A DNA stretch of 64,000 nt from Lentimicrobium sp. L6 (GTDB taxonomy: Bacteria > Bacteroidota > Bacteroidia > Bacteroidales > UBA12170): NCBI RefSeq assembly GCF_013166655.1, contig NZ_JABKCA010000009.1:1-64000 (forward strand). Direction: 5' to 3'. Under the pieces are notes generated by a model, which was not told where the DNA came from, did not search any database, and saw only the letters and a list, made by a program, of their open reading frames with translations. Positions 16,693 through 46,771 of this stretch are shown one piece after another. Position numbers and translations under genes: made by a program. Each line of letters starts with the position of its first letter. Position 1 is the first letter of the stretch.

Positions 16693-17310
16693 TTAAGCTT
16701 TTTCCCATTCATTAGTTTCATGATTAAATTTCTTAATCACTCTTGCTGGGTTTCCTACAGCAACACTGTATGGTGGAATATCTTTAGTAACCACACTGCC
16801 TGCGCCCACCTGACATCTTTTACCAATGGTAACTCCTGCTACAATCACTGAATTGGCTCCAATATGAGCATCCTCTTCAATGGTGATTCCTCTCACATCT
16901 AAATCTTGAGTTGAAGAGTTTTGGGTCCCATCTTTATAGCCATGATTAAAGCCAGCCATAAAAACATGTTGACCAGTTCCAGAGCCACTTTTCATGGTGA
17001 CAGGTCCAATGATAACTGTTCCAATACCAACTCGGCATCTATCACCAATAATCACATCTCCTGACCCGTTATTGACAGTGGTAAAGCTTTCCACCGTAGA
17101 GTAGGCTCCAACATCAAACTTATTATAAGGCATCACATCGATTCTTGATTGTCGTCTTCTGATTAAGGCATGTTTGCCTTTTTTATGAAAGAAAGGATTC
17201 ACAAATAATCGAATCCACAACCTAGGCCGAGGACGACGAGGAGGATGAATCATCCACATCACCAATCTTTTTAATCTGGGGTCAGATTTTAGTTTTTCTT
17301 TTAGTCCCAT
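16693..17310 (-). CDS. Left-handed beta-helix acyltransferase (hexapeptide repeat)
   Basis: A 205-residue protein with a basic N-terminal region (RLKRLVMWMIHPPRRPRPR) and then hexapeptide turns such as VIIGDRCRVGIGTVIIG and ITIEEDAHIGANSVIVAGVTI. It closes with the family ending VVTKDIPPYSVAVGNPARVI. The fold belongs to trimeric acetyl/acyltransferases of the WbbJ/LacA type that decorate glycans with acetyl groups from acetyl-CoA. The His in FNHGYKDG may be the catalytic base (inference). It is the last gene of the four-gene glycan operon, 11 nt after the preceding glycosyltransferase, and probably O-acetylates the glycan made there. Confidence 0.88.
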   Translation of the reverse strand: MGLKEKLKSDPRLKRLVMWMIHPPRRPRPRLWIRLFVNPFFHKKGKHALIRRRQSRIDVMPYNKFDVGAYSTVESFTTVNNGSGDVIIGDRCRVGIGTVIIGPVTMKSGSGTGQHVFMAGFNHGYKDGTQNSSTQDLDVRGITIEEDAHIGANSVIVAGVTIGKRCQVGAGSVVTKDIPPYSVAVGNPARVIKKFNHETNEWEKA

Positions 17311-17321
17311 AGTCTTATCAT

Positions 17322-18530
17322 TTAAAGGTCTTTCCAGCCATTTTCAAAAGCAGTTACATATTTGAATATCTCTTTTACATTATTTTCCCAAGAGTGACTT
17401 GTGCCACAAGATATGCGCTCCTTTTGTAGTTCTTTAGAATCCTCATTTAAGGCTTTGTCAATGACGGCGACCCATTCTTCATGAGTAGAAGCCAAATAGG
17501 TATGGTCTTTAAAATAATCCATGGCTTTAGTTGCGGAGCCAATGGTTGGTTTTCCCATGGCCAAATATTCATCTATTTTTCTAGGGTAGTTTCCAATGGT
17601 AGCATCATTAATCAACTGAGGGTTCATGGCTATATCAAAAGCTTTAATATAGGATGGAAGCTGGCTACTATCGCGGCTTCCCAAGAAATGCACATTCTCT
17701 AATTTATGTAATTCTGAAGCTTCAAATTTCTCATCTTCCGGCCCTACTAAAACGATACTCCACTTTGGCCTTTTTTTGGCCATAAAGACTAATAAATCAA
17801 TATCTAATCTTCTACTCGATAAGAAACCAACATATCCTATTACAGGACTTTTAAATTCTTTCATATCCTCAGGAATAGGAATACTTCCATCTGCATCTCT
17901 AAAAAGACTCACGTCGCAGCCTTGTCCAACCATATAACTATGCTTGTTAAACTGGCGGCCATATTCTGCATAGAGGGTAGAGTTGTTCACAACCACATCC
18001 GCTTTTTCAACCAATTTAGGCTCAATCCTTAAACCATGCTTCCTCCAATAGGGATTCTTGGTGAGGTAATCCCGCATATAATAAACGTAGGTTTTGGGCT
18101 TCAAAAGCTCTTTTTGATGTAAGCCTGTAAACATGTTGCTATCATTAAAGATGATAAAGTCTTTAAATCCAAGATGGTCTATAGCTTCTTGAATATCTGC
18201 AGCAAATTTTCTATTGTTCCTTTTATTGATAAAGTCGTAAAGTTTGCCATCAGGAAGCCAATTGATGGATTCTATCATACGGTGTGGATATAAGTTCCAC
18301 ATGTTGGTAGAAAGTTGTACTAGATTATCTTCTTTTCCTTCACAAATTCGGATTCTTTTTTGAGTTCTTTCATCCGAGGCTTTGTTTTTTTTCGTGTTTC
18401 TGTCTAAAGGAGAATTTACATAAAGTACTCGGTTGTACTTTGACATTTCCTCAGCAATATTTTTACAATTGCTACCGATTTCAATGTCCCAAGGTTGAAT
18501 CCCTATGACAATAATGTCTCGTCCAATCAT
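17322..18530 (-). CDS. Glycosyltransferase, GT-B fold (group 1 / GT4-like)
   Basis: A 402-residue cytoplasmic protein without membrane segments. The N-terminal half begins MIGRDIIVIGIQPWDIEIGSNC.. and contains YVNSPLDRN. The C-terminal half has VIGYVGFLSSRRLDIDLLVF, VHFLGSRDSSQLPSYIKAFD and KIDEYLAMGKPTIG, the usual donor-binding segments of GT-B enzymes, with the second E of the EX7E motif in the DEYLAMGKP stretch. It begins 1 nt after the stop of the GT2 gene and ends 11 nt before the acyltransferase. It likely adds one sugar to the product of this operon; donor and acceptor are unknown. Confidence 0.85.
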   Translation of the reverse strand: MIGRDIIVIGIQPWDIEIGSNCKNIAEEMSKYNRVLYVNSPLDRNTKKNKASDERTQKRIRICEGKEDNLVQLSTNMWNLYPHRMIESINWLPDGKLYDFINKRNNRKFAADIQEAIDHLGFKDFIIFNDSNMFTGLHQKELLKPKTYVYYMRDYLTKNPYWRKHGLRIEPKLVEKADVVVNNSTLYAEYGRQFNKHSYMVGQGCDVSLFRDADGSIPIPEDMKEFKSPVIGYVGFLSSRRLDIDLLVFMAKKRPKWSIVLVGPEDEKFEASELHKLENVHFLGSRDSSQLPSYIKAFDIAMNPQLINDATIGNYPRKIDEYLAMGKPTIGSATKAMDYFKDHTYLASTHEEWVAVIDKALNEDSKELQKERISCGTSHSWENNVKEIFKYVTAFENGWKDL

Positions 18531-18531
18531 T

Positions 18532-19746
18532 TTATTTTTTTTGGTTCTTAATATTTTTAATATTTGTTCCGGTACTCGTATGCTTAGTATGTAAGAATTT
18601 TTGGTTGGCTCCTCTAACTTTCAATAATGATAAAAACATGAGGAAAAATCCTTTTGGTAGTGAAATAATCGCTTTTAAAGTTTGTTTATTATAGAATTTC
18701 CTAGGTACAGAAATCACAAAAGTGATAAATACCAAAGCAAATAGTTTGATCCAAAGTATGGCCATTGGGTGGGGGTAGAAAAACAGAGAGATGAAGAATA
18801 TTATTCCCATGAATCCTAATAAGAGAATACGGGGAGGCAAGAAAGTATGAAAGGCCTTATTAAAGAAGTCTATGTTTCCTTTAGTGATTAATGCCAAGAA
18901 AGATTTAAAGAAAAATCTTTTGAAGTAAACGATTTGAGCGCTAAGCCACCTTCTTCTTTGGTTTTGAAAAACTTCGGCTTTTTGCACTTTCTCATCATAG
19001 CAATAGGCATCTTCTATATATTCAATGGTAATGCCGTCTCTACACATCTTTAAATCTATTTCTTTATCAAAACCACCAATGGCATGTACTTCACTCATCA
19101 TCTTCTTAAAAAAGGTGTATTCAAAAGCCATTCCAGAACCGATGATGGCACTGGAAACGCCCATGATTCTGGAGCCTTTTCTAAAGATGTGGTTATTTAT
19201 ATCCTCACTTACGGCATCGAGAATGGCGAAGTTCGAATCTGTATTCTTTGCAACTCTATGTCCTTGTACTGCTTTAAATCCAGCTCTGAAAGCTTCATCC
19301 ATTTTAGTAATGAAATCTTCTTCCATAAGGTTGTCGGCATCTAGAATTAAAGCCACATCGTAGTCGTCGCCTAAAACTTCCATGGTTTTGTTCAGAGCTT
19401 TTGACTTTGTGCTTTTATCGAAAGATACTTCGATCACTTTGATGGGTAGCTTTTTTAAGGCAACAATGGTTTCTGGTTGATAGGAATCACAAATAGCTAT
19501 TACATCGTATAATTCTTTAGGATAATCTTGATGTAGCGCATCCTCACAAACTTCTACAATAACTTCATCCTCTTTATAACCAGGAATCATAACAGCATAT
19601 TTACGCTTTTTATCATCAATGGGTTTGGGTTTTTTATATTTAAATAAACCTGCCAAAGCAAAGATGAAGATATACAAGGTTGTGATGAGTAGATAGACGA
19701 AAAATACCCATTGGATGATGTTTAATATTGTTAAGATAATGTCCAT
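18532..19746 (-). CDS. Membrane-bound GT2 glycosyltransferase with QxxRW motif
   Basis: A 404-residue protein. It has one N-terminal membrane helix (LTILNIIQWVFFVYLLITTLYIF), a GT-A catalytic domain (residues about 45-290) and two to three C-terminal helices (PPRILLLGFMGIIFFISLFF; LWIKLFALVFITFVISV; FFLMFLSLLKV). Catalytic features are CDSYQP, ILDADNLMEEDF (DxD-type metal site) and QRRRW, the QxxRW motif of processive and chain-extending GT2 enzymes. It sits 7 nt after the WbbL-like gene. With QxxRW and flanking helices it could polymerise a glycan chain at the inner membrane; alternatively it transfers one sugar to a lipid carrier. Confidence 0.87.
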   Translation of the reverse strand: MDIILTILNIIQWVFFVYLLITTLYIFIFALAGLFKYKKPKPIDDKKRKYAVMIPGYKEDEVIVEVCEDALHQDYPKELYDVIAICDSYQPETIVALKKLPIKVIEVSFDKSTKSKALNKTMEVLGDDYDVALILDADNLMEEDFITKMDEAFRAGFKAVQGHRVAKNTDSNFAILDAVSEDINNHIFRKGSRIMGVSSAIIGSGMAFEYTFFKKMMSEVHAIGGFDKEIDLKMCRDGITIEYIEDAYCYDEKVQKAEVFQNQRRRWLSAQIVYFKRFFFKSFLALITKGNIDFFNKAFHTFLPPRILLLGFMGIIFFISLFFYPHPMAILWIKLFALVFITFVISVPRKFYNKQTLKAIISLPKGFFLMFLSLLKVRGANQKFLHTKHTSTGTNIKNIKNQKK

Positions 19747-19753
19747 AGCCGTA

Positions 19754-20707
19754 TTATTTTGATTCTTCTAAGCGAGGGCTTAGTTTTATTTTCTTATCAA
19801 ATAGGTGTGCTAGATGCCATAATACCCCCTTATTATAGGCTCTAATATATTTCGGATTTCCTTTGATAGCAATCATCAACGAGTTTTTTGGTACTGCCAC
19901 GAAAAGCTGGTACAAGATAGCTAAAAAATAAGTCATACCAGAAAAATTTCGTCTTAAATATAGAATTCTATTTCGAGTCATATAATAAGCTCGTAAAGGG
20001 CTCACTCTTCCTCCAGTAGAAATAGATTCCTTGTGATATATTAATGAATTATGAACGTAATATATTTTATATCCAGCGTCTTTGATTCTATGTGCCCAAT
20101 CCAGTTCTTCATAATAGAGGAAAAAGATATCAGCCATCAGTCCAACTTTATTTATGGCTTCCATGGATACCATCATTGCGGCGCCATGTCCATAGCTAGC
20201 TTCACAATCCTCTTCATATTGTCCTACATCCTTTTCTCCAAAACCTTTAGCTCCTCCCCGTTGTGTGATGGGGTTAATAGGTTCGTATCCCACATACTGC
20301 AAGGTGTCGGGTGAATGGAAAAATCTAATTTTTGGACCAACAATTCCAATACTTGGATCGCTCTCCATTTTGGCTACTAATGGTTCTAAGAAGTCTGGTT
20401 CCACTTCTGTATCATTATTTAGCATCAAAATATACTTCCCTTTAGCCACATTGATTCCTAAATTATTTCCGCCAGCAAAGCCCAAATTTTCTTTACTTTC
20501 AATATAGATAATTTCAGGGCATTCTTCTTTTACTTGTTTCGGATTTTCGTCGGGGCTTGCATTGTCAACAATGATGATTTCTATATTGGGATAGGTGATT
20601 TTTCTCAATGATTTAACCATTTCAATAGTCACGTCTGCATGACCATATTGCACAGAAACAATGCTTACAAGAGGAAGGTTATTTTGTGAATTGTTCGAAT
20701 TCTCCAT
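19754..20707 (-). CDS. GT2 glycosyltransferase, rhamnosyltransferase (WbbL)-like
   Basis: A 317-residue protein. The GT-A domain starts LVSIVSVQYGHADVTIEMVKSL and includes IIIVDNASPDENP, ENLGFAGGNNLGIN and MLNNDTEVEPDFL (the DxD equivalent is NNDTE), which are characteristic of the WbbL/RfbN group. FFLYYEELDWAHRIKDAGY carries the expected catalytic acidic residues. A short hydrophobic region (MTYFLAILYQLFVAVP) near the C-terminus may dip into the membrane. It is the first gene of the glycan operon, with a candidate promoter about 30-60 nt upstream. Confidence 0.88.
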   Translation of the reverse strand: MENSNNSQNNLPLVSIVSVQYGHADVTIEMVKSLRKITYPNIEIIIVDNASPDENPKQVKEECPEIIYIESKENLGFAGGNNLGINVAKGKYILMLNNDTEVEPDFLEPLVAKMESDPSIGIVGPKIRFFHSPDTLQYVGYEPINPITQRGGAKGFGEKDVGQYEEDCEASYGHGAAMMVSMEAINKVGLMADIFFLYYEELDWAHRIKDAGYKIYYVHNSLIYHKESISTGGRVSPLRAYYMTRNRILYLRRNFSGMTYFLAILYQLFVAVPKNSLMIAIKGNPKYIRAYNKGVLWHLAHLFDKKIKLSPRLEESK

Positions 20708-30015: not shown

Positions 30016-33356
<3,341 letters not shown>

Positions 33357-33591
33357 TTGCCTTTATTTTGGTCCAAATTTACTAATAATTTTGATTAAAT
33401 TATATTTAAGAATGTACTAATTAAATCTATTTGTAGATTGGCTAATAGTCACTTATGCTTGTTGATGTTGAATAGTGAAAAATGTTAAAAAATATGTAAA
33501 GGCCATAAAATCAGCCATATAGCCTATTTCTGTGTTTAAAACTTTGTTAATACTCTATTGAAGATTCTTTAATGCTAAGAAATGGAATAAG

Positions 33592-33655: not shown

Positions 33656-36163
33656 ATGATTGAGTTGAAAAAATATATTATTTTGGTTGTTCTGTTAACC
33701 TTTGTTTCTATTCAAGGAACATGGGCTAAGGAATCAGATTTTGATAAGGATCCAAACCTTGAGAGCCTGATGCCAGATGATGGTGATTTTCTTCCAGATA
33801 CTGTTAATGTCTTTCATATTGCAAAAGACGTAAGCGAAATATTTATGAATGCGATCAATGGCTCAGTTTATCATGATGTTCATGGCGATGTAACTCTATT
33901 AAATTCAATTTTTATTTCAAATTATACTTCCAATGATGTAGGGCAGGCTTATCAGGAAGCTTTGAATCAGCAGATTAAAGCCAAGAGAGGTGATGTGGGC
34001 TTAAATATGAGAGGTGATTATACTGAAAATTTTACTCCAGGGATATCCGTTGACGAAGATCTTACCTTTAAAAGAAGGTTTTATGTAGGTTTGGAATGGG
34101 ATATTATAAAAGGTGGTTTATTCGATGCCAATAATCAAATACATCAAATGAAGATGCAAGCCATTCTTAAGGAGTATGAAACTTTGGAATATGCTGAGCA
34201 AGAAAACTACCGCTACCTATTTAATTATATCAACTATATATTTAATGTTAGAAAAGTAAAGGTGCTTGAGGAGAGAAAAAACCTAGTGAAGAAACAGTTG
34301 GAGTTTACTAAGGAATTATATCATTTGCGCTATGTGGGTTGGGAAAAAGTACTCCAATATCAGGCTAAGTTAGAAGATATAGATCAACAGGTTTTTCAAT
34401 TGCAGAATTTTAATAAACATATCCCAGCAAATATTCCTGATACTTTATTAGCGAATCCTATGACCGCTGATGATTTGCCTTTGTTTGATGTTAACCTGGA
34501 TAGTTTGATGAGAATATATTATAATCATCATGCGGAAGATACAGTGACTCAAATTAAACTGGCCATATATAAGGATAATCTAAAATGGTGGAAAGATATT
34601 ACACTTAAACCATTTGTTAGATACAATATGTATATGGATGAGTTTAATACTTTTAAGAATTATGGTTCCGCTGGAGTTACCTTAAGGGTGCCTTTGCGAT
34701 TTCATAATAAAGGTAAGCTCATTAAAGCTCAACAGAATGTTTATCAGTCTGAGCAAATGAAGGAATTAGAAGGTGGCGATAATGAGTTAGTTAATATTTA
34801 TGCTGAATTTGGATTTAAACTTAAGCAAATCAAAGACCTTTATTATAGAAAGATGGTTAATGATGAGTTGATTCGTAAAGAGTTAGTGAAGAAAGAATAT
34901 AGAGATGTAGCTTTTAATCCGGTTATTACTTTGGGATTAATTGATGACAAGAAAGCTATTGAAGCAGAAATCATTGATTTAAAAAAACGAATGTACATTA
35001 ATTTGGTGCGCTTATCTTTTTATCTTGAAGACCGAACTCCAACAGATTTTATTACGGTACTAACACCTCAAGATTTCACTGGAAGATATAATGGCAATGT
35101 AAAAATGTTTGTTACTACAAAAGATGTTGAAAAGCACAGCCCAGTTGCTATCGCCAATTACCTTTGGAAAAACGAGTTTGTTGATGTGATGATAGAATCT
35201 GAACAGGACACTATCCCTTTATACCTTACAACATTACTAGAGAAGACTCAACTGGCCAATACATTTTTCTCTGTTATGAAAAGAGTTCCTCTTAATAGCG
35301 AATACCCAAATGTCAACCAGGATGTTAATCGAATATTAGAATGGAACCATCCTCGTATTATTGGTTTGCATTACGAAATGGAATTACTGCAAGACAGTTT
35401 AAACGAGATTAGCGAAGTAGCTGTGAGTGATTGGGTAAATAGTATTACTCCCCAAGCAAGTAGTGGACAAGTAAGATTAAGTATTGGTATTCCATCTGGT
35501 TTAAATGTGAGTTTACTGAATAGGATTTTCGATAAATTCGATTTAGTTTATGTTCATGAATTAGGCGTTCCAAATAGAAATAGAGTAGAGCAGAGTTATG
35601 CTTCAGAATTGAATCTTGATAAAAACAGGTTGGTACTTTCTTTAAGGGGAAATGATTTTGTTGACCGAATGCATTTGGAGAATTATATGGCTGATTTATT
35701 TGAAAATACAGGTATTACTAATTTTGCATTCTCTGATTATGAAAGTATGATGAGTGTTGATTTTAAAACATTCGAAAAAGGATATGAAATAGACTTGCAA
35801 CCTGAGGAATTAGTTGCGAGTGTTAGAGCTCAAATTTACCATATAGAAGATAAGGAAGTGATAGCAAAACAAGAATTGCAGTTGAAATCCAAAAGCCAAG
35901 TATTAGCTGGTACTGAAGAAGAAAAAACACAAGATAAAAATGAGGCTATCAATTTTTATCGCATACAGATAGCAGCAAGTAAAGTAAAACTTACTGAAAG
36001 CAAATTGGAGAAATTCAAAGCTAAAGATATTCGAGAAATAGCAATAAATGGTTATTATAAATACACAATTGGTAGCTATACATCGGAAGATGATGCAACA
36101 AAAGCTCTAGACAGATATAGATCTGAATCGGGCAATGTTGGAGCATTTATAGTTACTTATTAA
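33656..36163 (+). CDS. TolC-like outer-membrane factor with extra periplasmic region and C-terminal SPOR-like domain
   Basis: I choose ATG 33656 (MIELKKYIILVVLL..), which gives a normal signal peptide and 835 residues; a longer frame from 33572 crosses the candidate promoter. Residues about 85-480 resemble an outer-membrane efflux (TolC/OEP) protein: long helices (YEQENYRYLF.., KVKVLEERKNLVKKQLEFTK) alternate with beta strands (RFYVGLEWDIIKGG, GSAGVTLRVPLRFHN). Residues about 500-760 are an alpha/beta region with alternating strands and helices (VRLSIGIPSGLNVSLLNRIF, FDLVYVHELGVPN, NRLVLSLRGNDFVDRMHL) that may be a TIM-barrel-like domain. The C-terminus (FYRIQIAASKVKL...YKYTIGSYTSEDDATKAL) fits a SPOR peptidoglycan-binding domain. 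It is probably the outer-membrane exit channel of the system. The boundaries are approximate. Confidence 0.75.
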   Translation: MIELKKYIILVVLLTFVSIQGTWAKESDFDKDPNLESLMPDDGDFLPDTVNVFHIAKDVSEIFMNAINGSVYHDVHGDVTLLNSIFISNYTSNDVGQAYQEALNQQIKAKRGDVGLNMRGDYTENFTPGISVDEDLTFKRRFYVGLEWDIIKGGLFDANNQIHQMKMQAILKEYETLEYAEQENYRYLFNYINYIFNVRKVKVLEERKNLVKKQLEFTKELYHLRYVGWEKVLQYQAKLEDIDQQVFQLQNFNKHIPANIPDTLLANPMTADDLPLFDVNLDSLMRIYYNHHAEDTVTQIKLAIYKDNLKWWKDITLKPFVRYNMYMDEFNTFKNYGSAGVTLRVPLRFHNKGKLIKAQQNVYQSEQMKELEGGDNELVNIYAEFGFKLKQIKDLYYRKMVNDELIRKELVKKEYRDVAFNPVITLGLIDDKKAIEAEIIDLKKRMYINLVRLSFYLEDRTPTDFITVLTPQDFTGRYNGNVKMFVTTKDVEKHSPVAIANYLWKNEFVDVMIESEQDTIPLYLTTLLEKTQLANTFFSVMKRVPLNSEYPNVNQDVNRILEWNHPRIIGLHYEMELLQDSLNEISEVAVSDWVNSITPQASSGQVRLSIGIPSGLNVSLLNRIFDKFDLVYVHELGVPNRNRVEQSYASELNLDKNRLVLSLRGNDFVDRMHLENYMADLFENTGITNFAFSDYESMMSVDFKTFEKGYEIDLQPEELVASVRAQIYHIEDKEVIAKQELQLKSKSQVLAGTEEEKTQDKNEAINFYRIQIAASKVKLTESKLEKFKAKDIREIAINGYYKYTIGSYTSEDDATKALDRYRSESGNVGAFIVTY

Positions 36164-36179
36164 ATTAAAACCTAGCCGC

Positions 36180-37238
36180 ATGAAGCCGTTTAAATTTAAA
36201 ACGAAAGCAACAGTTCTTAAAGGGGTTAAAGAAGAAGCACCTAAAAAAAGAATAAATTGGGATAGAATTATATATTTAATTCTGTTTATCGTCATACTCA
36301 TTTCAATAATTTACTATGCCATTAGTAAAAGTTTTTATGTGAATGTGTTGGGCCATGTTCACACTGAACAGTTTAGTGTGGGATTTCCTGAAGATGTTTC
36401 AGTTTTTGATTATTTTGTTCAAGAACATGATACAGTTGATAAGGGAGATACCTTGTTTTATTATCGCTTGAATCTTTTAGAAGATGATAATGCTAATGCA
36501 GCAGTTGCTGCTGTTATTACTAATAACAGTGCTGACTGGTATTTGAAAGAGCGGCTTCAAACCCAGAAAAAGATCAACCTAAGCTATATTGAAATTGGCG
36601 ATTTTAAAAATAATATCGCAAGAATTGAGAAAGAATTAGAAAAAACCCGAAAAGAAGTTTATCTAGATGTTTATCCTCAAGCAGAATTGAAGAAATCAAT
36701 TTTGGAGATAGACAAGCTTTATGTGAATATTGAAAAAACAGAGGGTGAAATTACCTATTTGAAGAAATATTTAAGTCTCCTAAATTATTATGAGCAGCAA
36801 GCTAAATTGAATCAACCAATTATAAATACTGGTGATGGTGATGTTCTGCTTTGGAATTATTATGAAAGTCCTGTGGATGGTGTAGTAAGCAAGATCTATC
36901 AAGATGCGGAGGAGGTTACCTATAAGAAAGATATAGTCATGCTGATCAACGATTTTGAAGAAATTTTTATTCTAGGATATATAGACCAAAAAGACATTAA
37001 ATATTTTGAACTTGGGGAGTCTTTAACAGTTAACTTTGCAGATGGAGACATGAGTGAAGGAATCATAGATAAATTTTATATAAATACAGAAGAGTTACCG
37101 CTAGATTTTGTGGAAGATAAGGCTAGATTTTCAAGAAAAGTAGTGGTTCGTCTGGTACCAGAGAATGAAGAAGTAGCAGATGAGTGGAAAAAACGCCATC
37201 TTTATGAAGTACGGATTTCTAAAACCAGATACTTCTAG
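36180..37238 (+). CDS. HlyD-like membrane fusion (adaptor) protein
   Basis: A 352-residue protein starting 16 nt after the TolC-like gene. One N-terminal membrane helix (IIYLILFIVILISIIYYAI) anchors it in the inner membrane. A split lipoyl/barrel-sandwich domain is visible: the first half includes FVQEHDTVDKGDTLFYY and the second half YYESPVDGVVSKIYQDAEEVT. Between them lies a helical hairpin (residues about 115-215, EKELEKTRKEVYLD.. and EKTEGEITYLKKYLSLL). A beta-barrel segment follows (EIFILGYIDQKDIKYFELGESLTVNFAD). The layout matches HlyD/EmrA adaptors and also Alg44-type polysaccharide adaptors, but it has no PilZ domain. It probably bridges the GT2 synthase and the outer-membrane channel. 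Confidence 0.88.
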   Translation: MKPFKFKTKATVLKGVKEEAPKKRINWDRIIYLILFIVILISIIYYAISKSFYVNVLGHVHTEQFSVGFPEDVSVFDYFVQEHDTVDKGDTLFYYRLNLLEDDNANAAVAAVITNNSADWYLKERLQTQKKINLSYIEIGDFKNNIARIEKELEKTRKEVYLDVYPQAELKKSILEIDKLYVNIEKTEGEITYLKKYLSLLNYYEQQAKLNQPIINTGDGDVLLWNYYESPVDGVVSKIYQDAEEVTYKKDIVMLINDFEEIFILGYIDQKDIKYFELGESLTVNFADGDMSEGIIDKFYINTEELPLDFVEDKARFSRKVVVRLVPENEEVADEWKKRHLYEVRISKTRYF

Positions 37239-37282
37239 ATGCTTTTTTAAGTATATTTCTATCACTCTCAAATTAATGAATT

Positions 37283-38683
37283 ATGGCTAACGATCAATTT
37301 GGAAAAAAGGTACAAACGCAGAGTAATAAAGAAGTTTTCTTTATTTCGGATTTCTCAAATCTGGATATTAAGAAAGTGGTGATTACTGATGTGATTATTT
37401 TGGATTACTCGAATAAAGAGGGTTGCAGAGGGTTTTTAAATCAGATACGTTCTTCTTTTGTTGAATCTATTTATTTAACGCCTGTTTTTATCCTGTCCAT
37501 TAACGAAGATGTTGATTCTTTTACGAAATCTTTGACTGATGGAACAGTTCATAGTCTTCAAGAAGAAGCTTTTATTGGTCCTTTTCAAGCCATTGAGCAG
37601 AGAATTAGACAACTACAATCCACAAATAATCAAGATCAAGAGATAAAAATTCTAAATAAAATACTACGTTATTATTATACACGACAAAGTAGAATGAAGC
37701 CTATTATTTCTGCTAAATCACACACTGGGTATTCATTTCCATTACTTTCTCTGCATTATCAAAATGTAAATACTGAGGAAAAGTTTTCAATACTCGATAA
37801 GTTGGTGAGTAAAGAATTTTTACGACCACGTTACGAAGATTTAGTGCATCTCTGTAATAATTGCTACTCTGGTTTTTTAAATTATAGAGAAGTATGTCCA
37901 AAATGTAGTACTTCAGATTTATATACCGAGAATTTGATTCATCACTTTGTCTGTGCAAACGTGGCTCCCGAAAGCGATTTTATCAATGGTGATCAAATGG
38001 TTTGCAATAAATGTAATAGGATGCTGCGCCATATTGGAGTTGATTATGACAAGCCAAGTCTAATATATACTTGTAATAATTGTGGACATCATTTTCAAGA
38101 ATCCGTAATGCAGGCTCTCTGTATGAGTTGTGAGTCTGTTCATAATGTAGATAGTCTTCTCGAAAGAAAGATATATAATTATGAGTTAACAGCTTTAGGT
38201 GAAGAATCTGCAATAGGAGGTCTAGTTCCAAGTGAAAAGCAAGATGCTGAAATGGCTGGGTTTATAGGATTCTCAACTTTTAATATCTTTTTAAAATACG
38301 AAATTGAGAGAATCAAAAACAGTGGTAAAACTAGTAGTGCAGGTAGTTTGAGTTTAAGAACTCCTGCAGCGCTCAGCAATTCTTTGGGAGTGAAATATAA
38401 TACGGTTGTTACAGAAGTGGCTGAGTTTATTAAAAATGCAACTTTAGCTACTGATATACTTACTTTCATCAATAGTAATACTTTTTTAATTATTTCTCCT
38501 GACAATGATAAATTTCGTTTGGAAAGTTTGTTAAACAATATACGCCATTCTGTTCAGAAGCTGATAGATAGTAATATTGATGAAGCCAATATCATGGTGA
38601 AGATTAAAGCTGAAAACATAGACAGTACTAAAAACCATAATGACCTTATAAATAGCTTATTAACTAATAATGGGGCTGGCTGA
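37283..38683 (+). CDS. Zinc-ribbon (TackOD1-like) protein with receiver-like N-terminus and degenerate GGDEF domain
   Basis: A 466-residue soluble protein. Residues about 15-110 look like a divergent receiver domain (VIILDYSNKEG with D41 at the acceptor position). Residues 191-283 contain eleven cysteines, most in CxxC pairs (C191/C194, C205/C208, C241/C244, C264/C267, C280/C283), suggesting two or three zinc ribbons. The arrangement recalls the TackOD1 output domain, recognised from memory and not searched. Residues about 325-445 align with a GGDEF fold (GFSTFNIFLKYEIERI, NTVVTEVAEFIKNATLATDIL, FLIISPDND, LNNIRHSVQKL), but the active-site loop reads N397-S-N-T-F401 in place of GGDEF, so cyclase activity is not expected. 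It lies between adaptor and synthase, and its stop overlaps the synthase ATG (TGATG). A regulatory sensor, possibly of c-di-GMP or another nucleotide, is inferred. Confidence 0.75.
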   Translation: MANDQFGKKVQTQSNKEVFFISDFSNLDIKKVVITDVIILDYSNKEGCRGFLNQIRSSFVESIYLTPVFILSINEDVDSFTKSLTDGTVHSLQEEAFIGPFQAIEQRIRQLQSTNNQDQEIKILNKILRYYYTRQSRMKPIISAKSHTGYSFPLLSLHYQNVNTEEKFSILDKLVSKEFLRPRYEDLVHLCNNCYSGFLNYREVCPKCSTSDLYTENLIHHFVCANVAPESDFINGDQMVCNKCNRMLRHIGVDYDKPSLIYTCNNCGHHFQESVMQALCMSCESVHNVDSLLERKIYNYELTALGEESAIGGLVPSEKQDAEMAGFIGFSTFNIFLKYEIERIKNSGKTSSAGSLSLRTPAALSNSLGVKYNTVVTEVAEFIKNATLATDILTFINSNTFLIISPDNDKFRLESLLNNIRHSVQKLIDSNIDEANIMVKIKAENIDSTKNHNDLINSLLTNNGAG

Positions 38684-39993
38684 TGATTTATACCTTTTGG
38701 GATGAGTTTTTTTGGTATTGGTACTCAAATGGTTTTGAGAAAGTTTTCAATATCTTCTGGTATTTCTTTTTATTGGAAGCACCTCGGTTTTTATTGATGG
38801 ACTTTGTTGTGCTTTTTGTTTATTTGCGAAAACGCAGTTCCATGAAGGTGGCCAGAGAAAATGCCCGAAGGGAATTTTTAATGGAAAATCCATTAATTTC
38901 TGTTATTGCTCCTGGCAAGAATGAAGGTAAGCACATCTACAAGTTAGTGAACTCTCTAAATGAACAGACATATAGAAATATTCAAATTGTAATTGTGGAT
39001 GATGGCTCCGATGATGATACCTATCTCATTTGTAAAAGTTTATACGAAAATGGGTATATTGATATCTTTTTACGAAATGATGATAGAGGTGGTAAAGCTT
39101 CTGCTGCGAATTTGGCACTGCGTTATGCCACTGGTAAATTTATAGTGCATTTAGATGCGGACTCCTCCTTTGATTCTGCTGCAATCGAAAATATAATTCT
39201 TCCTTTTTATTTGGATAAAAAAGTAGGAGCGGTAGGAGGAAATATTAAGGTTCGAAATTATAATACCAATATATGTACCTCAGTTCAGGCTATCGAATAC
39301 CTTCAAACCATTTCTATTGGACGAATGGTTACTTCTTATTTAGGTATCTACAAAATTATCTCTGGTGCTTTTGGTGCCTTTAGAAAAGATATCCTTGATA
39401 GAATTGGAGGATGGGATATTGGACCAGGATTGGATGGGGATATTACTGTTAAGATTAGAAAGCTTGGTTATAAGATCGACTTTGAACATACTGCAATTGG
39501 CTTAACAAATGTTCCTGAAAAATTCAAAATACTATCCAAGCAAAGACTTAGATGGAATAAATCATTAATCCGTTTTAGGTTGAGGAAGCATAAGGATGTT
39601 TTTATGCCAGATGCTCGGTTTAATTTCAGTGATTTCTTTGCACTCTTTGAGAATATCTTTTTTAACCTAATTCTTGATATTGTATGGTTCTTTTATATCA
39701 TCAATATAATTGTTGTGAATGCAGAGTTTCTGGCTTTCATCATTCCATTGAAAATTATGCTTTATGGTACTGCTAGTTTGCTTCAGTTCTTTGTGGTTTT
39801 AATTTTGTCAGAGCGATGGCGACAAGAAATTAAACTGATTGTATTTATTCCATTAATGATGATTTATAATGGATATTATATGAGAATTATTAGAACTATG
39901 GCATATATTAAAGAAATATTCTTCCTTTCATCATATAAAGACCCATGGAATCCGAGCAAGTCTTCTCAGAAGGCTCAGGAGTTTGGATTGTAA
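38683..39993 (+). CDS. Processive family 2 glycosyltransferase (polysaccharide synthase)
   Basis: A 436-residue inner-membrane protein. One or two N-terminal hydrophobic segments (FNIFWYFFLLEAPRFLLMDFVV) precede a GT-A domain with SVIAPGKNEG, IVIVDDGSDDDTY, HLDADSSFD (DxD), LDGDITVKI (TED/base region) and KQRLRWNK, the QxxRW motif of processive synthases. Three or more C-terminal helices follow (FFNLILDIVWFFYIINIIVV; ASLLQFFVVLILS; LIVFIPLMMIYNGYYM). This fits the PgaC/Alg8/BcsA-like class that polymerises and translocates a beta-linked glycan from a nucleotide sugar. The substrate is unknown. It is the last gene of the four-gene operon. After its stop, the convergent six-PAS kinase gene ends 83 nt away. 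Confidence 0.9.
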   Translation: MIYTFWDEFFWYWYSNGFEKVFNIFWYFFLLEAPRFLLMDFVVLFVYLRKRSSMKVARENARREFLMENPLISVIAPGKNEGKHIYKLVNSLNEQTYRNIQIVIVDDGSDDDTYLICKSLYENGYIDIFLRNDDRGGKASAANLALRYATGKFIVHLDADSSFDSAAIENIILPFYLDKKVGAVGGNIKVRNYNTNICTSVQAIEYLQTISIGRMVTSYLGIYKIISGAFGAFRKDILDRIGGWDIGPGLDGDITVKIRKLGYKIDFEHTAIGLTNVPEKFKILSKQRLRWNKSLIRFRLRKHKDVFMPDARFNFSDFFALFENIFFNLILDIVWFFYIINIIVVNAEFLAFIIPLKIMLYGTASLLQFFVVLILSERWRQEIKLIVFIPLMMIYNGYYMRIIRTMAYIKEIFFLSSYKDPWNPSKSSQKAQEFGL

Positions 39994-40076: not shown

Positions 40077-43073
40077 TTACTTAGTGATATATGGAATACT
40101 AAAACTCATTTTGGTGCCAATTCCCAACTCAGATTCTAGCCAGATTTCTCCGCCCAATAGTTCTGTGCAAGCCTTTGAAATAGCCAGGCCAAGTCCAGTT
40201 CCTCCAAACTCTCGGCCAATGGATGTATCTGCTTGCATAAATCTCTCAAAGATGATTTCTCTTTGTTTTTGATCTATTCCAATTCCTGTATCAGTAACGC
40301 TGAAAATGATTTCTTGGTCTATTAACTCATAACATATAGTGATCTTGCCTTTATGGGTAAACTTAATCGAATTGCCTATGATATTGTTTAATATTTGTTC
40401 CAATCTATTGGTATCAGTAATCACTAAATCATTTTCATTTGTCAGCCCAAACTGTAGTTCAAGTTTTATGTCTTTGTTTTTTAGTAAATCCAAATCACTT
40501 CTAAAAGAGATGTATTTCTCATGAAGTAAAGCATTTAAGTGACATTGGTTATGATTAATTTTTAATTGATTGGCATGAATCTTAGAAATATCTACTATAT
40601 CGTTAATTAGGTGCAATAGGTGATGAGAGCTTTTGTTGATGATGTTTAGGAATTGGGTTCTCTCGTTTTCATCGGTACTTGGGTCTTTTACAAGTTCAGA
40701 AAAACCAAGTATGGCATTCATTGGAGTTCTGATTTCGTGGCTCATATTGGCTAAGAAAGATGATTTTAATTTGTCATTCTCTTCTGCTTTGTTTTTGGCC
40801 TCAGTTAACTCATTGGTAATTTTAATATGCTCACTCACATCTCTTGACACCGCAATGGTAACCTTTTCACCGAAGAATTGCCCAGGAGATAGAACTACTT
40901 CTTTTGGGAATATGGTTTTGTTTTTTCTTAGTCCCCAAAAACTAATGGTGTTTTGTTCACCATTAAAAGCTTTCTCTATTGCATTTTGTACCATATTCAG
41001 GTCATTCATTCCGGGAGCCGATAAAAAGGCAGGTGACTTCCCAATAAAATAGGAGAATTCATAACCATAAGTTTTAATGGCCGAGTCATTAACATATTTG
41101 AAATTCCCATCCTCATCTAAAATGTATATCATCTCCGAAATGCTCGCTAATATGTTTCTATAGGTATTATGCGATTCTATTAGTTTGTTTTTATTTGTGA
41201 CCTCCTCACTGATGTCATGGATAATTTGTAATAAACTTGGTTCTTGATTGGAAATGATGAAACTTTGGTTGATATGTACATTGATCTCCGAGCCATATTT
41301 TGTCCTATGTACAAAACTATGTTCTTCCGATTCAATTACAGAAACGCTATTTATTTTTTCATCAAGCTCGGCTTTACTAAGTGTATTAATGTCGTATATT
41401 TTCATCTCCATTAATTCCTGCCTATTATATTTGTAGAGTTTTGCAGCAGCATAATTGGCAAAGGTGATGTTTTTTGTAATAGGTTCTATGGCCAACATGG
41501 CGGCTGAATTCTGTTCCAGATAATCTCTAAATTGTTTCTCTGAGTAAATTACTTTCTGACGCTCAATGGTCAACTTGTCAATATTCGTTTTTAATTCTAT
41601 CTCTAAGTTTTTCCTTTCTGTAATATCAAACGCGGAACCAATAGCGGCAGGTTCTCCCATATAATTAATCGGGGAGGCTGCAAATTCCACCCACTTTTCA
41701 ATTCCAGATTTGGTAATGATTTTAAATTCATAACTATCAGATGGAGAGCTGTTTTCAAGTCGATTAAGACCTCGATTTCTAACCACTTCAATATGCTCAG
41801 GAGAGACCAAAAACCAAAATGCTTTGTTCTTAACTTCTGCAAAAGAATAACCCGTAATTTTCTCGAAAGAATGATTAGTGTATAAATACTTGTGGCTATA
41901 GATAAATATGGCTGCAGTAGCTGAGTTTGTTAATGCTTTGAAAGTTTGTTCCGATTCTTCTAATCTTGACTTGATCCAATTAGAGTTGGTAATATCTATG
42001 GAGCTTACGATTAAACTTTCACTTTTGCTATCGAAATTAGAAAGGTTTGCAGAGGCTTTTATCGTTTTGTACTTGTCTCCAACAGATCTTAATCTATAGA
42101 TAAATTCAAAAACTTTTCCTGTTTTTCTTAGTTCATCAAACCCTTGATTTATTTTAGTAACATCTTCAGGGTGAATCAGATTTAACCAATCTTCTAATTT
42201 ATTATTCTCTTTTGTAGATTTCTCAAAAATCTCTTTCATTTCATCATTGAAACGTATGTTGAGTGTTGAAGTATTAATATCAATAATTCCTATTCTATCC
42301 ATTTGAGTAACAAAAAGCAGTCTGTTTTTAAGTTCCTTTAAGGTGTTTTCTGCATTCTTTCTATCCTGAATATCACGCATGATACTGATATATCCCTTGT
42401 TGGTTTTATTTGAAACCATTTCAATGGTTAGAGGTTCTTGGTTTTTCCTATTGATCAGCCTCTCCTTTTTAACATCCTCTCCTTTGTTTACCTTGTGAAA
42501 AAGAAGCGGATTTTTTTCTAGTTGATGTTGATCAAATAAGAAGCTAATGTGATGGCCCAATAATTCGGAAGCTTGATAACCTGTCATTTCATAGGCTTTT
42601 TGATTGGCCTTTATGATTTCTGCTTGATGATTGCCTATGATGATGCCATCTCCCGCCAAATCAAATAGATCGGTTTCATTAATACTTGAATTGTTTTCAG
42701 AGGATTCTAATATTTCTAAGTTATCGATTTGATGGCCAATAATCATCCATTCTGAATGATGACCTGAACATCCCTCAATTTTATTTATTTCAAGTTCAAA
42801 ATCGTTTTTAGGATGTTTAAGAACAAGTTGAATTGGAATTTCTTTATCAAGTAGAAACTGTTGGATATTCTCAATGAGGATATTGTTTTTATCCGCATTT
42901 ATTAGTTCTGAAAATGTATATGGATTTAAAAGGTCGGAGCAATTTGGTAGATCGAAAAGCTTACGGAACTTTTGATTATAAGACTTTATAATCATTTCTT
43001 GATTTAGAGTGAAGAATAGTATACTCTTTGATTTCTCTAAAGTTCTTTGAAGTTGCTTGTTAGAATTTGGCAT
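40077..43073 (-). CDS. Soluble sensor histidine kinase with six PAS-like domains
   Basis: I choose the ATG at 43073 (MPNSNKQLQRTLEKS), 998 residues; the frame is also open from a TTG at 43100. There is no signal peptide or membrane segment, so it should sense cytoplasmic or diffusible signals. Six PAS-like modules can be followed by their openings: KSILFFTLNQEMII, DLFDLAGDGIIIGNHQ, VTQMDRIGIIDINT, FKALTNSATAAIFIYS, YLEQNSAAMLAIEP and ILASISEMIYILDED. The kinase core has the HisKA motif ANMSHEIRTPMNAIL, an N-box (LNNIIGNSIKFTH), DTGIGIDQKQ and GTGLGLAIS. No receiver domain follows, so it must pass phosphate to a separate regulator. It is not within obvious operon distance of one: the next gene upstream (ntrY-like) starts its own set. 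Confidence 0.93.
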   Translation of the reverse strand: MPNSNKQLQRTLEKSKSILFFTLNQEMIIKSYNQKFRKLFDLPNCSDLLNPYTFSELINADKNNILIENIQQFLLDKEIPIQLVLKHPKNDFELEINKIEGCSGHHSEWMIIGHQIDNLEILESSENNSSINETDLFDLAGDGIIIGNHQAEIIKANQKAYEMTGYQASELLGHHISFLFDQHQLEKNPLLFHKVNKGEDVKKERLINRKNQEPLTIEMVSNKTNKGYISIMRDIQDRKNAENTLKELKNRLLFVTQMDRIGIIDINTSTLNIRFNDEMKEIFEKSTKENNKLEDWLNLIHPEDVTKINQGFDELRKTGKVFEFIYRLRSVGDKYKTIKASANLSNFDSKSESLIVSSIDITNSNWIKSRLEESEQTFKALTNSATAAIFIYSHKYLYTNHSFEKITGYSFAEVKNKAFWFLVSPEHIEVVRNRGLNRLENSSPSDSYEFKIITKSGIEKWVEFAASPINYMGEPAAIGSAFDITERKNLEIELKTNIDKLTIERQKVIYSEKQFRDYLEQNSAAMLAIEPITKNITFANYAAAKLYKYNRQELMEMKIYDINTLSKAELDEKINSVSVIESEEHSFVHRTKYGSEINVHINQSFIISNQEPSLLQIIHDISEEVTNKNKLIESHNTYRNILASISEMIYILDEDGNFKYVNDSAIKTYGYEFSYFIGKSPAFLSAPGMNDLNMVQNAIEKAFNGEQNTISFWGLRKNKTIFPKEVVLSPGQFFGEKVTIAVSRDVSEHIKITNELTEAKNKAEENDKLKSSFLANMSHEIRTPMNAILGFSELVKDPSTDENERTQFLNIINKSSHHLLHLINDIVDISKIHANQLKINHNQCHLNALLHEKYISFRSDLDLLKNKDIKLELQFGLTNENDLVITDTNRLEQILNNIIGNSIKFTHKGKITICYELIDQEIIFSVTDTGIGIDQKQREIIFERFMQADTSIGREFGGTGLGLAISKACTELLGGEIWLESELGIGTKMSFSIPYITK

Positions 43074-43134
43074 TATTAGTATTCTTTGATTAATTTGCAA
43101 TCATGAAGATACGAAAAAAATCAATAAATACAAT

Positions 43135-46084: not shown

Positions 46085-46771
46085 ATGATAAAGTTACGAA
46101 ACTTAACAAAAGTCTATAGAAGTAGTGAGGTGGAAACCTTGGCGCTGTTGAATGTGAATTTAGAAGTGAAAAAAGGCGAGTTTGTAGCTATCATGGGACC
46201 TTCGGGTTGTGGAAAAACGACTTTATTAAACTTGCTTGGTCTATTGGATGAACCTTCCGATGGAGAGTATGCTTTTATGGAAATCGCTGTAGCAAAGTTG
46301 TCCGAGAAGGAGCGCTCAAAAATCAGAAAGCATAATATGGGTTTTGTTTTTCAGAATTATAACTTAATTGAGGAACTTAATGTTTATGAAAATGTAGAGC
46401 TTCCATTAATTTATATGGGAGTAAAAACCGAGGAGCGTAAAGAAAGAGTTCACGAGATTTTGGAAAAAATGCAAATTCTTCATCGTAAATTTAATTTTCC
46501 AACCCAGTTGAGTGGTGGGCAACAACAACGTGTAGCAGTTGCTAGAGCTGTTGTTGGTAAGCCTAGAATTGTCTTTGCAGATGAGCCAACAGGAAATCTA
46601 GATTCAGCTCATGGCGAAGAAGTGATGAGATTATTAGATGAGGTGAACAAGTCTGGTACTACAGTTATTATGGTGACCCATTCCCAAAGAGATGCTTCCT
46701 ATTCTAATAGGGTTTTGCGTTTGTTCGACGGACAGATTATTAATGAAAACATCCTCCAAAAATTTTCCTAA
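46085..46771 (+). CDS. ABC transporter ATP-binding protein (MacB/LolD type)
   Basis: A 228-residue protein with all ABC ATPase motifs: Walker A GPSGCGKTT, Q-loop VFQNYNL, signature LSGGQQQR, Walker B IVFADEPTGNLDS and H-loop VTHSQ. Length and the NLIEELNVYENVELPL stretch place it with the MacB/LolD/FtsE-like group that powers FtsX-type permeases. It is the first gene of the three-gene operon and serves the permease at 47059. These exporters are known to work by mechanotransmission on periplasmic substrates such as lipoproteins, peptides or antibiotics. A candidate sigma-54 promoter lies upstream. Confidence 0.95.
   Translation: MIKLRNLTKVYRSSEVETLALLNVNLEVKKGEFVAIMGPSGCGKTTLLNLLGLLDEPSDGEYAFMEIAVAKLSEKERSKIRKHNMGFVFQNYNLIEELNVYENVELPLIYMGVKTEERKERVHEILEKMQILHRKFNFPTQLSGGQQQRVAVARAVVGKPRIVFADEPTGNLDSAHGEEVMRLLDEVNKSGTTVIMVTHSQRDASYSNRVLRLFDGQIINENILQKFS

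Follow-up and report, generated by a model that had tools for sequence, protein, structure and literature searches.

What would a bacterium build with four consecutive genes for an outer-membrane channel, a periplasmic adaptor, a zinc-ribbon control protein and a glycosyltransferase? The question is raised by positions 33,656 to 39,993 of a 64,000-nucleotide stretch (hereafter the window) of contig NZ_JABKCA010000009.1 from Lentimicrobium sp. L6. The source genome is a 5.14-Mb draft in 195 contigs, 96.5% complete, and the closest named relatives at this operon, among the best 80 of 255 loci, are Bacteroidales metagenome-assembled genomes, two of them labelled Draconibacterium orientale. A preliminary description, made from the DNA letters alone, had reported four co-directional genes with gaps of 16, 44 and -1 nt, encoding a TolC-like outer-membrane protein, a HlyD-like adaptor, a zinc-ribbon/degenerate GGDEF protein and a QxxRW synthase of glycosyltransferase family 2 (GT2). 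The four open reading frames (ORFs) indeed lie on one strand with exactly those positions and gaps, and each assignment stands up to the analyses below. They also support the proposal then made, a machine for synthase-dependent exopolysaccharide production that has TolC-like and HlyD-like proteins as its exit and is controlled by a soluble protein. We would add that the product is likely rich in aminosugars and that the machine is probably gated by a response-regulator-like protein, and we put the probability of this reading as a whole at about 0.72.

One line of evidence is that the four genes stay together. Loci were the best 80 of 255 genome-contig loci with a relative of TackOD1 (PF18551), the zinc-ribbon domain of the control protein, found with a single peptide pattern that favours near relatives. 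Block order was scored by six-frame profile search, and an absent gene was classed as 'edge' according to how far away the contig end lay. The order TolC-HlyD-TackOD1-GT2, which the preliminary description had proposed seeking elsewhere, is complete in 72 of the 80, the other eight being short of members only near a contig end, and in every one of 13 additional loci from the phylum or order. These counts use loci L068-L147 (80) and L054-L066 (13), two sets that may overlap; L044-L053 and L068-L080 are partly from the same genomes. A chance neighbourhood is rejected by this constancy of order, and the possibility raised beforehand that GT2 and adaptor would prove unlinked in most genomes is not realised. 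The 80 loci include Prolixibacter, Roseivirga, Tenacibaculum, Winogradskyella, Crocinitomix and Salibacter, as well as one Desulfuromonadales and one Nitrospirae record. Across 395 genomes of the window's phylum, with at most 8 (TackOD1) and 4 (GT2) candidates scored per genome, TackOD1 exceeds its cut-off in 12, the window's own included; with the GT2 profile 13 genomes pass E<=1e-60, those 12 with scores of at least 690 bits and one (G155) with 213 bits. Among 60 relatives TackOD1 is over cut-off in 12, again with the window's own, and nine of the ten same-genus genomes are among them.

The GT2 protein is an inner-membrane enzyme bearing the QxxRW motif of processive synthases, and it is encoded beside both an outer-membrane exit and a periplasmic part. 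Its motifs DDGS, DAD, DGD and QRLRW contain the residues that are invariant across 18 aligned GT2s: D106-S109, D158-D160, D251-D253, Q287, R288, R290 and W291. The best family is PgaC/IcaA (NCBIfam TIGR03937, poly-N-acetylglucosamine synthase) at 169 bits, a score that misses the curated membership cut-off of 422.3, and the next family reaches 99.6. The GT2 profile matches chondroitin and hyaluronan synthases, and NodC, hyaluronan and chitin synthases are weaker matches than PgaC/IcaA. The prior concern that the enzyme might cluster with non-polymerising relatives is thus answered, its nearest neighbours being of the polymerising PgaC/IcaA type. In a tree of 46 rows, which omits the 213-bit GT2 of G155, the 40 bacterial TackOD1-linked GT2s form one clade (support 96/89) that excludes PgaC/IcaA and NodC. 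An earlier tree had 52 rows and more long branches, and gave this clade 91/95 with one intruder; removal of six long-branch rows (BcsA and five other GT2s of the window genome) yielded the later values and expelled it. The GT2 of the archaeon Halorussus is placed next to another long branch and not in the main clade, and its kinship to the TackOD1-linked enzymes is uncertain.

Between adaptor and synthase lies the gene for the control protein. Its 'zinc ribbon' is real, but it is already a named Pfam family: TackOD1 is matched at 182.4 bits against a curated cut-off of 32. According to the accessible text of its description, this domain is known from archaeal response regulators, from type IV pilus loci of thaumarchaea and from some bacteria, and its function is called obscure (PMC5847659). 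A profile of 18 aligned control proteins matched, among solved structures, receiver domains N-terminally and GGDEF domains C-terminally. In an AlphaFold2 model built from 63 sequences (mean predicted local distance difference test score, pLDDT, 87.3), residues 320-466 superimpose on GGDEF folds with Z 17.4 and a root mean square deviation (rmsd) of 2.5 over 144 residues. Among 60 of the 140 rows of matches to solved structures no chain aligned mainly over the TackOD1 region, which does not in itself speak for a new fold. Pfam recognises TackOD1 in 63 of the 63 aligned proteins and GGDEF in 13. The active site GG[DE]EF is absent from all 63 motif stretches, on which ground an active diguanylate cyclase is rejected. 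At the I-site position RxxD is present in 20/63 proteins and LATD in the window; the TackOD1 proteins of Plesiomonas, Photobacterium and Aeromonas have an I-site-like RDTD before their degenerate GGDEF. Receivers with the canonical residues are fused to TackOD1 at five loci (L056, L058, L059, L060 and L066) and, with those residues partly kept, at L062, all from one family of the phylum; by Pfam the L066 receiver scores 75.1 bits and a Roseibium receiver fused to TackOD1 scores 54.8. Two control proteins are natural truncations: that of L063, at 317 amino acids, has no GGDEF-like part, and the one called at L102 is missing the beginning of its receiver-like part.

The channel protein is a composite. 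The longest ORF opens at 33572 (863 amino acids), but the start at 33656 is favoured because it begins a signal-peptide-like segment, MIELKKYIILVVLLTFVSIQGTWA. In an AlphaFold2 model from a 55-sequence alignment (mean pLDDT 81.4) the channel domain superimposes on TolC (7ng9_A) with Z 18.8 and an rmsd of 5.9 over 379 residues, and Foldseek pairs it with SilC at E 1.4e-13; the Pfam OEP model finds no sequence match in the window protein and matches 23 of the 55. A predicted barrel follows which resembles GH18 chitinase 6k7z_C (Z 16.7, rmsd 3.2 over 212 residues). Pfam Glyco_hydro_18 is matched in two of the 55, the window protein not being one of them, SPOR in four and LysM in four. The GH18-like motif reads GIHLDxE or nearly so in most aligned proteins and GLHYEME in the window, and its last Glu, E604, is kept in 51 of 55, window included. 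Fusion of GH18-like and SPOR domains to the channel appears to be new. For the adaptor, 35 of 41 aligned proteins, that of the window included, have a HlyD_3 match; the HlyD score of the window protein, 20.8 bits, lies slightly below the Pfam cut-off of 22.2.

From these parts we infer the product, export path, docking, gating and gating signal of the machine as follows. The GT2 would polymerise a nucleotide-activated sugar, with an N-acetylhexosamine or its uronic form the likeliest candidate, and would extrude the chain through its own transmembrane part. As the operon contains no pump gene, the PgaC-like synthase is likely to be the inner-membrane motor, and since the GT2 is the sole constant multi-pass inner-membrane protein of the block, it probably stands in for the pump: the HlyD-like adaptor would dock on it and link it to the TolC-like channel. 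The GH18-like barrel may then trim or grip the emerging chain, and the SPOR domain may tie the channel to peptidoglycan. In the cytoplasm the receiver-TackOD1-GGDEF-like protein would gate the synthase in response to a two-component signal, rather than by PilZ or PelD with cyclic di-GMP (c-di-GMP). Gating by this protein is suggested by the linkage, by the receiver fusions and by analogy with CheY3 and MxdA of Shewanella, discussed below. An aminosugar polymer is pointed to jointly by the GH18-like domain, the PgaC-like synthase, TviB-like dehydrogenases near some loci and a deacetylase-like neighbour in one archaeon, none of them decisive.

The pairing of TackOD1 with a synthase reaches beyond the Bacteroidota, and the earlier label of a Bacteroidota-type system is too narrow: Thermodesulfobacteriota, Nitrospirota and Alpha- and Gammaproteobacteria have it as well. 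Twenty plasmid records carry TackOD1 (15 bacterial, five archaeal), and 11 bacterial (12 loci) and four archaeal (four loci) were examined. At all 12 proteobacterial loci (11 records) a GT2 gene stands beside TackOD1 in the order TackOD1-GT2, and at 11 it is followed by HlyD, the twelfth ending at the end of its record; the Plesiomonas and Photobacterium plasmids show the full order TackOD1 protein, GT2, HlyD. The Bacteroidota TolC profile has no match at E<=1e-5 within 9 kb in any of the 12, and a TolC-family gene lies downstream at the Methylocystis plasmid locus. On the 29-kb Aeromonas caviae plasmid pKAM345_3 (L182), typed as mobilizable, TackOD1 is followed by a GT2 cut by the end of the record. 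TackOD1 is over cut-off in 1 of 148 Nitrospirota genomes, that one being the starting genome, and in 9 of 297 genomes of the phylum of the Desulfuromonadales record, the starting one included. At five of the eight other loci of this latter phylum a GT2 lies no more than 1.4 kb from TackOD1; four of the five also have HlyD and three a TolC match (one weak), in other gene orders, and the fifth is at a contig end. On a Halorussus plasmid TackOD1, DUF2334 and a PgaC-like glycosyltransferase follow one another (L193:6950-9911), and the pairing may reach archaea.

Features of the operon and its flanking kinase genes (positions in the window)
Feature	Position	Strand	Basis
TolC-like channel protein: signal peptide, TolC-like domain, GH18-like TIM barrel, SPOR domain	33656..36163	+	ORF list, Pfam, AlphaFold2, fold search
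TolC-like channel domain	33893..35047	+	Residues 108-492 of ORF opening at 33572; fold Z 18.8
GH18-like TIM barrel	35090..35782	+	Residues 507-737; fold Z 16.7
SPOR domain, peptidoglycan-binding family	35954..36157	+	PF05036, 24.9 bits, cut-off 21
HlyD-like periplasmic adaptor, one N-terminal transmembrane segment	36180..37238	+	Pfam, hydropathy
Control protein: receiver-like, TackOD1, degenerate GGDEF-like	37283..38683	+	Pfam, profile, predicted fold
TackOD1 zinc-ribbon domain, PF18551	37634..38188	+	182.4 bits, cut-off 32
GGDEF-like domain, active-site motif lost, LATD at RxxD I-site position	38240..38680	+	Fold Z 17.4, motif tables
GT2, processive-type motifs DDGS, DAD, DGD, QRLRW; best family PgaC/IcaA	38683..39993	+	TIGR03937, motifs
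Divergent receiver-histidine kinase, possible partner	32157..33356	-	Response_reg, HisKA, HATPase_c
Convergent PAS-histidine kinase, possible input	40077..43100	-	Pfam

Zinc ribbons are frequently nucleic-acid binders, and the receiver-output layout of the control protein is that of a response regulator. The protein might, then, regulate transcription of the operon or act on its RNA instead of gating the synthase directly, an explanation further encouraged by the likening of the TackOD1 cysteines to those of the PriA insert by Galperin et al. 2018, in the accessible part of that paper (PMC5847659). It is nevertheless considered unlikely. The TackOD1 gene sits between HlyD and GT2 in Bacteroidota and directly before GT2 on the proteobacterial plasmids, the TackOD1 and GT2 genes are closely spaced or overlapping, and the GGDEF-like fold is kept; moreover MxdA, a likely counterpart, is reported to bind both c-di-GMP and CheY3 (accessible text of PMC7666153).

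This last point leads to the closest known system, mxdABCD of Shewanella oneidensis, and to the second alternative, namely that the operon is simply the Bacteroidota version of Mxd, with c-di-GMP as its switch just as in Shewanella. The cluster has the same kinds of gene, with a control protein, the GT2 MxdB and the efflux-pump-like MxdC, and an exopolysaccharide has been proposed as its product (PMC3691769, PMC7666153, accessible portions, as for the papers cited below). The GT2 and an efflux/HlyD-like gene beside the control gene are common to both operons, and the proteobacterial RDTD sequences and the 20 of 63 proteins with RxxD would suit binding of c-di-GMP. MxdA has been described as a c-di-GMP effector bound by CheY3 and probably activating the Mxd machinery (PMC7666153), and mxdB mutants are unable to build a three-dimensional biofilm (PMC3691769). 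The same source calls the function of MxdA unknown and its effect on c-di-GMP indirect (PMC3691769), and a review places the c-di-GMP interaction at MxdB, not MxdA (PMC8683041). Identity with Mxd appears improbable for this reason and for others. At the I-site the window protein reads LATD; the operon itself encodes the channel, which has extra domains, and runs in the order TolC-HlyD-TackOD1-GT2, whereas the accessible portions of the mxd papers name no TolC gene in the cluster (PMC3691769, PMC7666153); and the control protein has a receiver-like domain built in. In addition, the whole genome (96.5% complete) gives neither a GGDEF nor a PilZ match at E<=0.001, a negative that for GGDEF covers recognisable proteins only, since PF00990 also misses the degenerate GGDEF of the window itself, and this limit counts against our own reading as well. 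The four operon proteins likewise have no match to PilZ, the domain of c-di-GMP control of the alginate/Bcs type. The earlier suggestion of a soluble sensor in place of PilZ or PelD fits these searches, but it keeps the standing of a proposal. The operon and mxd were compared by gene content and published properties. A literature search on NVDEF, a motif attributed to MxdA, returned nothing.

Other systems narrow the novelty further. The Bgs mixed-linkage glucan system of Sinorhizobium and Rhizobium likewise pairs a GT2, BgsA, with a HlyD-like BgsB; in contrast to the present operon c-di-GMP binds the BgsA C-terminus, and the accessible texts name neither a TackOD1 partner nor a TolC gene (PMC9495663, PMC7902896). 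The cyanobacterial XcsAB-TolC cellulose model joins GT2, HlyD-like adaptor and TolC as one path, yet its synthase bears PilZ, XcsA, XcsB and TolC do not form one operon, and the model is stated to await experimental validation (PMC12430437). PgaABCD/Ica provides the nearest synthase family, and PgaB is annotated as deacetylase and hydrolase; it differs in that the TackOD1-linked GT2s are a separate clade, that neither PgaA nor PgaD is found among the four genes and that the exit here is TolC-like. The novelty claimed beforehand for the gene set is therefore reduced by mxdABCD and by Bgs and Xcs, two precedents with GT2 plus HlyD (and TolC in part), but it appears to survive in the TackOD1 partner. 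Synthase-dependent secretion itself is known; what appears new is this partner and the linkage of TackOD1 to a synthase across phyla. The open-licence literature searched yielded no paper that connects TackOD1 with the synthesis of polysaccharides.

A third alternative makes the GT2 a non-processive enzyme that produces a glycolipid or modifies a lipid-linked sugar, as many members of GT2 do. In its favour, simple hydropathy picks out just one strong transmembrane segment at the N-terminus and two at the C-terminus. We regard it as quite improbable given that QxxRW is kept, that the best match is PgaC/IcaA, ahead of NodC, hyaluronan and chitin synthases, and that the operon also encodes a way out across the envelope.

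Type I and RND pumps commonly include HlyD and TolC, and a five-locus ORF cluster in the same gene runs has one member (L126) that is an ABC ATPase by Pfam. Yet it is most improbable that the operon encodes a tripartite system for exporting a protein or a small molecule, with an incidental glycosyltransferase, there being no ABC, RND or MFS gene in the window operon or among the extra-gene representatives scanned inside the block, where GT2 is the only multi-pass inner-membrane protein conserved. A type I secretion system in particular was rejected, no ABC gene being found in the operon or its direct neighbours; an ABC ATPase gene at 46085 is 6 kb off and beyond three opposite-strand genes.

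Returning to the exopolysaccharide machine, several observations weigh against it besides the few transmembrane segments of the GT2. The receiver-like domain of the window protein lacks canonical residues and the Pfam receiver model is matched in 0 of the 63 aligned control proteins, for which reasons phosphorylation is in doubt, both for the window protein and for most of its near relatives. The conserved Glu of the barrel is lost in four same-genus channel proteins and, with the residues before it altered to GLHYEME, the window barrel may have lost hydrolysis. In the phylum of the Desulfuromonadales record, three of the eight other loci (L230, L232 and L234) have no GT2, HlyD or TolC match near TackOD1, and a different role for these TackOD1 proteins is possible; three of the four haloarchaeal plasmid loci have no GT2 beside TackOD1. 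Dehydrogenase, deacetylase-like and galE genes, finally, are present in only some lineages.

The neighbouring genes offer hints as to product and signal. Each kind of extra neighbour was counted with a single query, at E<=1e-15 and up to 9.5 kb away. A nucleoside diphosphate (NDP)-sugar dehydrogenase lies within this distance of TackOD1 at 9/80 and 5/13 loci, and at 12 loci in the same gene run. The two that were scanned, from L054 and L055, have TviB, a UDP-N-acetylglucosamine dehydrogenase, as their closest match, at 459 and 453 bits against a cut-off of 592; the window genome has two NDP-sugar dehydrogenases over cut-off elsewhere. In two nearly identical Rhodobacterales loci galE follows HlyD. 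DUF4114 is found near TackOD1 in six of the 80 and six of the 13 loci. On the signalling side, histidine kinase, Hpt-type or H-NOX genes occur near several loci. H-NOX genes are near the operon in six of the 80 (L098, L117, L119, L140, L144 and L145), which suggests a nitric-oxide input in some lineages. An ORF of 399-409 amino acids matches the place and orientation of the divergent kinase gene at seven same-genus loci with upstream flank, and a long ORF occupies the place of the convergent one in L045 and, cut by a contig end, L049, both by length and position only. CotH-kinase-like genes were seen at 15 of the 80 loci (L102, L106, L108, L110, L114, L115, L121, L124, L128, L131, L132, L134, L138, L139 and L146). 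Elsewhere in the window a second sugar cluster (16693-20707, minus strand) comprises, judging by sequence, an acetyltransferase-like gene, a glycosyltransferase-like gene and two GT2 genes, one of which (18532-19746) is far from the operon GT2 in the 52-row tree.

A broader view, for which we consider the odds even, is that TackOD1 marks a class of exopolysaccharide machine that has gone unrecognised across bacterial phyla, of which Mxd would be the one studied member and in which a receiver-zinc-ribbon protein gates a PgaC-like synthase. The signal would then arrive through a fused receiver in some Bacteroidota and Alphaproteobacteria and through CheY in trans in Shewanella, with c-di-GMP acting only where the I-site survives, and the Bacteroidota exit channel would carry its own GH18-like polymer-processing domain. 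If true, this would give a concrete role, tied to a polysaccharide synthase across phyla, to a domain called obscure in 2018 (PMC5847659, accessible text), and the receiver-TackOD1 fusion would explain why CheY3 touches MxdA in Shewanella. The operon-encoded GT2-HlyD-TolC path would have the layout known in cyanobacteria as a model without experimental validation (PMC12430437, accessible text). Bacteroidota without recognisable c-di-GMP proteins could, moreover, switch a PgaC-like synthase by other signals.

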